Positions 6,847-8,768 of a DNA stretch of 41,257 nucleotides are shown here, one piece after another. The stretch lies in assembly GCA_013297985.1 (NCBI GenBank), contig JAAFIY010000024.1, positions 1 through 41,257 on the forward strand, read 5' to 3'. Origin of the DNA: Comamonadaceae bacterium (lineage in GTDB: Bacteria; Pseudomonadota; Gammaproteobacteria; Burkholderiales; Burkholderiaceae_C). The notes beneath the pieces are model-generated. The model had not been told where the DNA came from. It ran no database searches and was given only the letters and a program-made list of their open reading frames with translations. Every line of letters starts with the position of its first letter. Position 1 is the first letter of the stretch. Made by a program: the position numbers and the translations under genes.

Positions 6847-6862
6847 TCAATACACTCCAAAA

Positions 6863-6896
6863 AAGGTTTCAACACGACGCGTACGCCTGGTGCCCT
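6863..6896 (-). promoter_or_regulatory. Possible expression platform before metK
   Basis: Between the candidate riboswitch and the metK ribosome-binding site the RNA can fold as AAAAGG / GCAC / GGCG-UACG-CGUC / GUGU / CCUUUU. This is a hairpin with a UACG loop ending in a run of six U that abuts the GGAG site. It could act as a weak terminator or could sequester the ribosome-binding site. This is inference from complementarity only. Confidence 0.3.
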
Positions 6897-6916
6897 TTTC
6901 AGAGTGCGCTGGCGAA

Positions 6917-7006
6917 CGCTTTAGCAGATTCGTCCGGGTTTGGACGTTGCACCCGCTGCGGGATGCGGTCGCTCTGCAAGTTGCTCGATTAACTCAGCGA
7001 CACCCG
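6917..7006 (-). ncRNA. Candidate SAM-II-like riboswitch in the metK leader
   Basis: Reading the minus strand, stem P1 is GUCGCU (7001-6996) with AGCGAC (6973-6968). Its loop starts GAGUUAA and ends UUGCAG. The last four bases, GCAG (6977-6974), pair with CUGC (6927-6924), forming an H-type pseudoknot. They are followed by UAAA, so the two U bases before GCAG can face AA across an unpaired U. That is the layout of the SAM-II ligand pocket. Compared with the classical SAM-II core (UGAUUUAA...UUGCA...GCUAAA), this leader has UGAGUUAA, UUGCA and GCUAAA. Two extra hairpins enlarge the joining loop: GCAuCCCG-CAG-CGGGUGC and CGUCC-AAACCC-GGACG. It lies 70 bases upstream of metK. The family assignment is by eye and unconfirmed. 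Confidence 0.55.
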
Positions 7007-7026
7007 CGATTTTATTGCCACGTCTG

Positions 7027-7881
7027 ATGTTGTTTGTCTTTCGCCTCTGTGCGGGTTTGCCCCTGTGGGTGGTTCATGCCTTGGGTTGGTGCCTGGGCTG
7101 GCTGGCGCTGGTTGCCTCAGCGCGCTACCGCCGCGCCGTGATTGACCACGCCCAGCTTGCGGGCTATGCGGGCCGCACGGTATGGGCAGCGGTGGGTCAC
7201 GCAGGGCGCATGGCCGCTGAAATTCCCCGGCTGTGGCTGGGCCGATCCGTGCCAGTTCGGTTTGCGGGTGACGCGGCCATCATGGCGGCTGCTGCCAGCG
7301 GCAAAGGCGTGGTGTTTCTCACCCCGCATCTGGGCTGCTTTGAAGTGACGGCGCAGGCTTATGCACGCATCCATGCGCCGCAACTCGGGCCCATCACCGT
7401 GTTGTACCGGCCTGCCCGCCAGCGTTGGCTCGAAGACCTGCAACGCGTGGCGCGAGACCGCCCAGGCCTGGCAGCGGCGCCTGCTAGCTTGCAGGGCGTG
7501 CGCCAGTTGGTGCGGGCGCTGCGCAGCGGCCACGCCGTGGGGCTGCTGCCCGATCAGGTGCCGCCCCAGGGGCAAGGGGTGTGGGCACCGTTTTTTGGCC
7601 GTGAGGCCTACACCATGACCTTGGCCGCGCGCTTGGTGCAGCAAACCGGCGCGGCGGTGGTGTTGGCCTGGGGCGAAAGGTTGTCTTGGGGGCGTGGTTT
7701 TGTGGTGCATTGCCAGCCGCTGGCCGAGGTGCTCAGCGCCGATGCGCTGACGGCGGCCACCCAAATCAACGCGGCCATGGAGCGCCTGGTGCGCGCTTGC
7801 CCGCAGCAATACCTGTGGGGCTACCAGCGGTACAAGCAGCCCCGCGTGTTGACAGCCCCCGAGGCCGCGAGCGCCCCGTGA
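7027..7881 (+). CDS. LpxL/HtrB-type lysophospholipid (lipid A) acyltransferase, first copy
   Basis: This 284-aa member of the lipid A late-acyltransferase family transfers an acyl chain to a lipid acceptor at the inner membrane. A hydrophobic N-terminus (FRLCAGLPLWVVHALGWCLGWLALVA) would anchor it. The catalytic H-x4-D/E motif is present as HLGCFE in FLTPHLGCFEVTAQAY, followed by LYRPARQRWL and LLPDQVPPQGQGVWAPFFG, both family hallmarks. The C-terminus has QQYLWGYQRYK, matching the usual WxxxRFK-like end. The ATG at 7027 starts directly at the membrane segment; an open frame upstream lacks similarity. The gene overlaps the next one by 4 bases, so the two are translationally coupled. It diverges from metK. 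Confidence 0.9.
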   Translation: MLFVFRLCAGLPLWVVHALGWCLGWLALVASARYRRAVIDHAQLAGYAGRTVWAAVGHAGRMAAEIPRLWLGRSVPVRFAGDAAIMAAAASGKGVVFLTPHLGCFEVTAQAYARIHAPQLGPITVLYRPARQRWLEDLQRVARDRPGLAAAPASLQGVRQLVRALRSGHAVGLLPDQVPPQGQGVWAPFFGREAYTMTLAARLVQQTGAAVVLAWGERLSWGRGFVVHCQPLAEVLSADALTAATQINAAMERLVRACPQQYLWGYQRYKQPRVLTAPEAASAP

Positions 7882-8768
7882 TCGCGGCCATCCGCACGGC
7901 ATTGAGCCACCTGGGCGTGCGCTTCATGCACGCAGCGCGGCGCTGGCCTTTGCCGCTGCTGCGAGCCATAGGCACCGCTTTGGGCGCGCTGCTGTGGGTG
8001 CTGGCCTGGCCACGGCGGCGCATTGCGCTGGCCAATTTGGCCTTGTGTTTTGCGGAGGTGCCGCTAGCCCAGCGGCGAGCGTGGGCGCGGGCACATTTCG
8101 TCGGCTTGGCCCAGGCTTGGCTTGACAGGGCCTGGCTGTGGCATGCCCAGCCTGAGCTGGTGCGCGAGCGCATTCGCTTGACGGGCGACCTGGCCGCGCT
8201 GCGTGCCGCGCCCCGCGCGGTGCTGCTGGGGCCGCATGTGCATGGGCTAGACGCCGCCTGGACGGCGCTTGCGCAGCAGTTGCAGCGGCCCTTGTCCACC
8301 ATTTACATGCGCCAGTCCAACGCGGTGGTGGACGCCTGGGCCCAAACGGGCAGGCAGCGCTGGGGTGACGTGCGCTTGCACCCGCGCGATGAGGGCGTGC
8401 GCGAGATTGCCCGCGGCATCTCGCAAGGGCGCCTGCTGTACCTGCTGCCCGACTTGGACTACGGCGCGCTGGTGTCTGAATTTGTGCCGTTTTTTGGCGT
8501 GTCGGCCGCCACCGTGACGTCGCTGTCGCGTTTTGCCCGGCTGGGTCAGGCGCAGGTGTTCATGCTCACGACGCGGATCACTCCGCAGGGCTATGACATC
8601 CACATCAGCCCTGCGTGGCCAGACTACCCCACGGCAGACGCGCCCGCCGACGCCCAGCGCATGAACGCAGCCATCGAAGCCATGGTGCGCGAAGTGCCCC
8701 ACGACTACCTGTGGACGCACCGGCGGTTTAAAACCACGCCGCCTGGTGATGCGGGCCGATATCGCTGA
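7878..8768 (+). CDS. LpxL/HtrB-type acyltransferase, second copy
   Basis: This 296-aa paralogue of the preceding gene begins at a GTG inside the overlap GTGA. It has a hydrophobic N-terminus (PLLRAIGTALGALLWVLAW). The catalytic H-x4-D appears as HVHGLD in GPHVHGLDAAW, and it carries YMRQSN, LLPDLDYG, FVPFFGV and a C-terminal HDYLWTHRRFKT. Here the motif acid is Asp, while the first copy has Glu. Tandem copies with different acyl or position preference are common in Burkholderiales, so the two may add different secondary chains to lipid A; that split of labour is inferred. Confidence 0.9.
   Translation: MIAAIRTALSHLGVRFMHAARRWPLPLLRAIGTALGALLWVLAWPRRRIALANLALCFAEVPLAQRRAWARAHFVGLAQAWLDRAWLWHAQPELVRERIRLTGDLAALRAAPRAVLLGPHVHGLDAAWTALAQQLQRPLSTIYMRQSNAVVDAWAQTGRQRWGDVRLHPRDEGVREIARGISQGRLLYLLPDLDYGALVSEFVPFFGVSAATVTSLSRFARLGQAQVFMLTTRITPQGYDIHISPAWPDYPTADAPADAQRMNAAIEAMVREVPHDYLWTHRRFKTTPPGDAGRYR

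Follow-up and report, generated by a model that had tools for sequence, protein, structure and literature searches.

A probable divergent SAM-II-type riboswitch precedes metK in a Comamonadaceae bacterium and its relatives

Introduction

The SAM-II class of riboswitches was defined in a study that makes no mention of metK and whose alignment includes Bordetella (Corbino 2005, PMC1273637), and it is commonest in Alpha-, Beta- and Gammaproteobacteria (Meyer 2009, PMC2704228). SAM-V lacks the 3'-terminal pairing element that SAM-II has (PMC2704228), and the family named SAM-II long loops (RF01726) was described on the basis of Bacteroidetes and marine sequences (PMC2864571). A survey of about 200 proteobacteria located SAM_alpha only in Rhizobiales and Rhodobacterales, reported a pseudoknot element, metXZ, in beta-proteobacteria and left the metK genes of the latter without a known regulator, a dedicated search having failed (Leyn 2014, PMC4239095). 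Later, 44 tandem SAM-II arrangements were reported, some with mixed platforms (Sherlock 2022, PMC9481103). The SAM/SAH riboswitch of Rhodobacterales (RF01727) also lies before metK, but it has another core and gave no match in the DNA studied here. A link between SAM-II and metK in these bacteria was not found in the open-access literature searched. The element described below, upstream of metK in a stretch of 41,257 nucleotides (the window) from a Comamonadaceae bacterium, would fill the reported gap in beta-proteobacterial metK regulation; it is missed by Rfam, and annotations are therefore without it.

Results and Discussion

Architecture of the metK leader

The metK leader sits between a divergent gene and metK (Table 1). 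Judged by sequence comparison, the presence at 6911-7001 (minus strand) of a real SAM-II-type pseudoknot, far beyond chance, is confirmed. Read 5' to 3', the probable -10 box is followed by the 5' strand of P1, GAGUUAA, GAGC, AAC, UUGCAG, AGCGAC and the linker, and the 3' part continues with CUGC, UAAA, GC, GUUC, GCC, the anti-Shine-Dalgarno (anti-SD) strand, the Shine-Dalgarno sequence (SD) and the metK ATG. An initial annotation of this DNA had described P1, the P2 pseudoknot, the pocket bases UUGCA and GCUAAA, the third strand and a joining segment of about 40 nt with two hairpins; on direct reading each part was found where it had been placed, P1 and P2 covary in relatives, and the joining segment indeed folds as two hairpins. 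The P2a helix (GAGC/GUUC) and an SD-sequestering platform go beyond that description. A scan of the window called no consensus sigma-70 pair; judging by the probable -10 box, we infer a transcription start that likely coincides with P1 or immediately precedes it.

Table 1. Features of the metK leader and their coordinates in the window
Feature	Position	Strand	Basis or remark
Probable -10 box TAAAAT	7009..7014	-	TANNNT ends 6 or 7 nt 5' of P1 in 105/142 metK leaders
P1 5' strand GUCGCU	6996..7001	-	pairs with 6968-6973; two-sided changes in 4/6 pairs
Pocket third strand GAGUUAA (SAM-II: GAUUUAA)	6989..6995	-	role assigned by analogy to PMC6061858
P2a 5' strand GAGC	6983..6986	-	partner 6914-6917
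Pocket UU and P2 5' strand GCAG (UUGCAG)	6974..6979	-	UUG[C/U] in 137/137 leaders
P1 3' strand AGCGAC	6968..6973	-	covariation with P1 5' strand
Linker, 40 nt	6928-6967	-	read from sequence
Linker hairpin 1 GCA.CCCG/CGGG.UGC	6949..6966	-	minimum free energy (MFE) fold of 40-nt linker
Linker hairpin 2 CGUCC/GGACG	6931..6946	-	MFE; UGUCC/GGACA-like hairpins at same place in L005, L009, L026
P2 3' strand CUGC (6924-6927) and UAAA (6920-6923)	6920..6927	-	UAAAGC in 137/137 leaders
P2a 3' strand GUUC	6914..6917	-	covariation with GAGC
GCGUUCGCC, 5' arm of putative anti-sequestor P3	6911..6919	-	also complementary to start region UGGCGAACG
Anti-SD strand, core CACUCU 6901-6906	6895..6909	-	matched anti-SD:SD energy
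P3 3' arm GGCGUACGC (relatives: GGCAACGC)	6879..6887	-	sequence
metK Shine-Dalgarno GGAGUG	6853..6858	-	sequence; predicted paired with anti-SD strand
metK, S-adenosylmethionine synthetase, 392 aa	5668..6846	-	PF00438, PF02772, PF02773; ATG 6846-6844

Occurrence and covariation among relatives

Sixty-one genomes were gathered with MetK as the query; the core was found in all 37 same-family genomes searched and in about a third (8 of 23) of the assessable genomes that represent the order's other families. We also sampled 80 named relatives (Rhodoferax, Roseateles, Hydrogenophaga, Ramlibacter, Polaromonas, Undibacterium and others), one of which was left out as not assessable since its contig ends too early; the element is present in all 79 others, 75 of them caught with the search pattern and four recognized on inspection of the leaders that the pattern had missed.

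The covariation of P1 and P2, whose absence the initial annotation had named as a refutation, is present. Over 44 aligned leaders, the two helices are paired in 98.2% of cells, compared with 91.6% after shuffling and 26-52% in slid controls, and none of 500 shuffles, which ignore kinship, reached the real value. Two-sided changes occur in 6 of the 10 pairs. P1 taken separately is paired in 97.7% of cells, and the P2 pseudoknot next to GCUAAA in 98.9%, with two-sided changes in two of its pairs, such that the strands GCAG, GCGG, GCAA and GUGG covary with CUGC, CCGC, UUGC and CCAC. In the larger set of 137 leaders, drawn from several families, the variable pairs remain paired more often than in shuffles, which again ignore kinship, and even otherwise fixed pairs show rare swaps (GC to AU in P1; CG to UA in P2 of leader L128, where UUGUGG stands with CCAC). 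The four pairs of P2a are formed in 94.9% of cells over the 44 leaders, the best of seven registers (slid controls 10-55%), by GAAC, GAGC, GGAC, CGAC or AGAC with GUUC, GUCG or GUCU. Comparison of the leaders establishes P1, P2 and P2a as an H-type pseudoknot with an invariant pocket core and, in addition, a conserved helix in which the SD is buried.

A covariance model, R1, built from the core of the metK leaders matched 217 of 349 sampled genomes of the order (E 0.01) and 64 of 274 genomes in the class (E 0.001), tallies that include weaker matches and elements before other genes and are therefore not counts of metK leaders. The weaker matches are probably terminator-type SAM-II elements before metX or metZ.

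The ligand pocket

UUGC is kept in 136 of the 137 leaders, the remaining one having UUGU with a compensating change, and together with the constancy of UAAAGC this bears out the expectation that UUGCA and GCUAAA persist in relatives. In the SAM-V/SAM-II pocket, U47 contacts the adenine, U20:A48.U9 the sulfonium and A50 the methionine end (PMC6061858). The bases equivalent to these contacts are kept in the 137 leaders, except for U10, which is G in most. By analogy to the same structure (PMC6061858), U6992 and U6991 correspond to U11 and U12 of SAM-II and G6993 to U10, and UAAA (6920-6923) with the 3' strand of P2 would provide the contacts to adenine, sulfonium and methionine. The third strand reads GAGUUA, with G in place of U10, here and in 129 of the 137 leaders, and GAUUUA/G in four.

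That a G so regularly occupies the base supporting the adenine-binding U raises the question whether the pocket has been retuned and senses SAH, SAM as well as SAH, or another adenosyl compound, the more so as another SAM aptamer is reported to have a close variant whose ligand differs, a spermidine variant (PMC10853860). We consider such retuning quite unlikely: both O4-donating uridines near the sulfonium, the basis of selectivity for SAM over SAH (PMC6061858), are kept, GAUUUA/G and GAGUUA replace each other among orthologous metK leaders (L044, L090, L131), and the product of the downstream gene makes SAM. This natural U10/G10 variation within one orthologous series offers a ready test of how far the SAM-II pocket tolerates change. 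The invariant unpaired GUUA, UU and UAAA, in the exact SAM-II pattern across families, also speak against a ligand-free structured leader, that is, a protein-binding site or an RNA thermometer sequestering the SD; the SD hairpin is very stable, which favours such a device, but on its own it is insufficient to account for the pattern, and we regard this explanation as very improbable.

Assignment to SAM-II

The Rfam gathering scan of the window returned nothing and a permissive scan chance matches only; specifically, SAM_alpha (RF00521), RF01826 and RF01726 gave no window match at E 10. SAM_alpha scores some metK leaders with 20-27 bits (20.9 to 26.8 among relatives, 26.8 being that of L015), below its gathering cut-off of 36 bits, and several of its genome-wide matches adjoin metK. 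Conversely, R1 finds metX SAM-II leaders with up to 26.9 bits (E 8e-6). On the grounds of the pocket bases, the P2a helix and this mutual recognition of the models we place the element with SAM-II, and it is designated a variant because the conserved GAUUU third strand (GAGUU here) and the 36-bit gathering score were both looked for and not found. Comparison of the leaders makes a divergent, widely conserved SAM-II variant the most likely assignment, in line with the SAM-II-type reading of the initial annotation, which fits the pseudoknot topology, the pocket bases, P2a and the covariation.

With SAM-II (RF00521) the metK element shares P1 closing the loop that holds the 5' strand of P2, an H-type P2 next to GCUAAA, P2a, the UUGC core, two uridines by the sulfonium and, in many relatives, a compact linker. 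In the metK element three nucleotides separate the 5' strand of P2a from UUGC and two separate its 3' strand from UAAA, and the 2-bp P2a of the SAM-II crystal RNA (2QWY) presumably keeps this spacing to UU and UAAA. Unlike SAM-II, the metK element has G for U10, the two-hairpin insertion in the window, a platform of about 70 nt that sequesters the start codon and the SD, a score below the Rfam cut-off or none at all, and as its target metK, unnamed in Corbino 2005 and not a SAM_alpha target in Leyn 2014.

The initial annotation had further suggested that the leader might belong to the published long-loop class. Membership in RF01726, or in SAM-V (RF01826), would agree with the long linker, with the SAM-II core with longer loops that the name of RF01726 denotes, and with the P3 stem-loop and A stack that SAM-V has at the same linker position (PMC6061858). 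SAM-V also resembles the metK element in its pocket and in probably acting on translation. The suggestion found no support. RF01726 has no match in the bacterium's own genome and matched one of 31 genomes, with a score of 18.7 bits where the cut-off is 44, and the extra hairpins are missing in many close relatives; SAM-V ends without a final 3' pairing element (PMC2704228), whereas P2a, of about 4 bp, is present here and the SD lies far downstream instead of adjacent. Membership in either family is therefore very unlikely.

Linker hairpins

The 40-nt linker of the window folds into its two hairpins with -16.5 kcal/mol (z -2.8). Linkers of at least 25 nt occur in 54 leaders, with a mean z of -2.6, and most of them fold into two consecutive hairpins that share little sequence, whereas in many relatives, including close ones, the linker is compact, with about 10-13 nt and often an AAAU end. 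In SAM-V this position is taken by a stem-loop, and the A residues after it dock in P1 (PMC6061858). The enlarged loop is, on this comparison, a variable insertion, and its two hairpins are most likely a structural spacer that holds the ends together; besides serving as a tolerated spacer they possibly carry a clade-specific function. A group of Rhodoferax-like linkers (L123, L125, L138, L152, L158, L163, L166, L171 and L188) has a conserved stretch around AUUGUGCC, which lies between or within the two hairpins and is absent from the window's own insert.

Expression platform and proposed mechanism

The helix between the anti-SD strand and the SD before metK covaries. Matched anti-SD:SD partners have an energy of -9.48, compared with -7.95 (sd 0.17) for permuted partners, the best of 300 permutations being -8.42, and with -6.24 for shuffled ones. 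GCGUUCGCC can pair in three ways, namely within P2a, in a hairpin P3 with GGC(A)ACGC downstream, and with the start region UGGCGAACG. The P3 duplex has an energy of -12.6 against -8.2 after shuffling. At Ala2, 87 of 110 genes use the codon GCG, compared with 29% in the remainder of the gene (Fisher p 4e-27, a value inflated by shared ancestry), which supports an RNA pairing constraint on the start region. When P3 is forced, the mean probability of an open SD is 0.39 compared with 0.17 when P2a is occupied, and it is higher in 121 of 141 leaders; in the window itself the SD is opened only to 0.21. P3 costs about 7.6 kcal/mol relative to the unconstrained fold, and when the whole leader is folded without constraints, the sequestered state is preferred whether or not the aptamer is present. 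Since the equilibrium fold is mostly closed either way, the switch would have to be kinetic or assisted by the ribosome, and the timing of co-transcriptional folding would have to matter.

Other arrangements were considered. A simple two-state equilibrium switch was dropped, as the SD neither opens nor closes when the aptamer is imposed on the leader. Pairing of GAGUUA with the anti-SD strand as an anti-sequestor was dropped because the window's anti-SD fits poorly. Pairing of the 3' strand of P1 with UUCGCC, formed in 85.3% of cells with weak two-sided change (2 pairs, 6 cells), is possible and not preferred.

Taken from the sequences, the leader is very probably a SAM-sensing riboswitch whose SAM-II-type aptamer represses translation of metK when SAM is plentiful. 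For the steps beyond the pairings themselves we infer a model in which SAM would dock in the major groove of P2, between the GUU third strand and UUGC/UAAA, and lock P2 and P2a. P2a would thereby take the GUUC just 3' of the core, otherwise the nucleus of P3 (GCGUUCGCC with GGC..ACGC) around the anti-SD strand. Without SAM, P3 would form first during transcription and leave the SD open; with SAM, P3 would be blocked, the anti-SD strand would pair with the SD and the start region, and metK would be off.

GUUC also lies within the strand complementary to the start region, and a switch of the opposite sign can be drawn from this, in which SAM frees the start region through the capture of GUUC by P2a. 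Action at another level, by termination or mRNA decay, has a precedent in the other beta-proteobacterial SAM-II elements before metX, which use terminators. Both are unlikely: the anti-SD:SD helix is still predicted with P2a formed, a SAM synthetase turned on by SAM would make little physiological sense, and no terminator-like site was found in the metK leader.

metX leaders, tandem loci and neighbouring genes

The metXZ element, like the metK element, is a pseudoknot that heads methionine genes in the same organisms, and it differs from the metK element in its place before metX or metZ, its use of a terminator and its retention of GAUUUG; by its sequence, the metXZ RNA element of Leyn 2014 is probably a terminator-type SAM-II. 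In the genome studied here, a second SAM-II-like leader (L071, G000:C157:12201-12276, minus strand) precedes metX, with GAUUUG and a terminator-like hairpin followed by a T run, and scores 34.5 bits with SAM_alpha, just below the cut-off of 36. Further metX leaders (L061-L070) match SAM_alpha above the cut-off, as do sequences in 39 of 151 family genomes.

At several loci (L081, L093, L099, L103, L104, L117, L118, L119, L202, L203) two elements stand in tandem upstream of genes that are not metK: first a terminator-type SAM-II and then, within about 50-160 nt, an element of the metK type. Some of these tandems may be among the 44 of Sherlock 2022. One could tentatively think of a distinct, order-wide SAM-II subclass in which the change of U10 to G adapts the affinity or the choice of ligand to metK control, and whose members in other families stand in tandem after a terminator-type SAM-II, a proposal we find rather doubtful; if the tandem reading were true, one ligand would be read twice, at transcription and at translation. 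Downstream of the tandems there is often a protein of about 100 aa that starts with M[YF]DC and is without a Pfam match, and then a MATE transporter. In L091, L092, L095 and L097, all from one family, a metK-type element precedes a gene for a MoxR-like AAA ATPase. In the window, two divergent plus-strand genes that start beside the metK leader (7027-7881 and 7686-8768) look by eye like LpxL/HtrB-type lipid A acyltransferases, and a form of the first divergent open reading frame starting with TTG at 6940 would overlap the riboswitch antisense.
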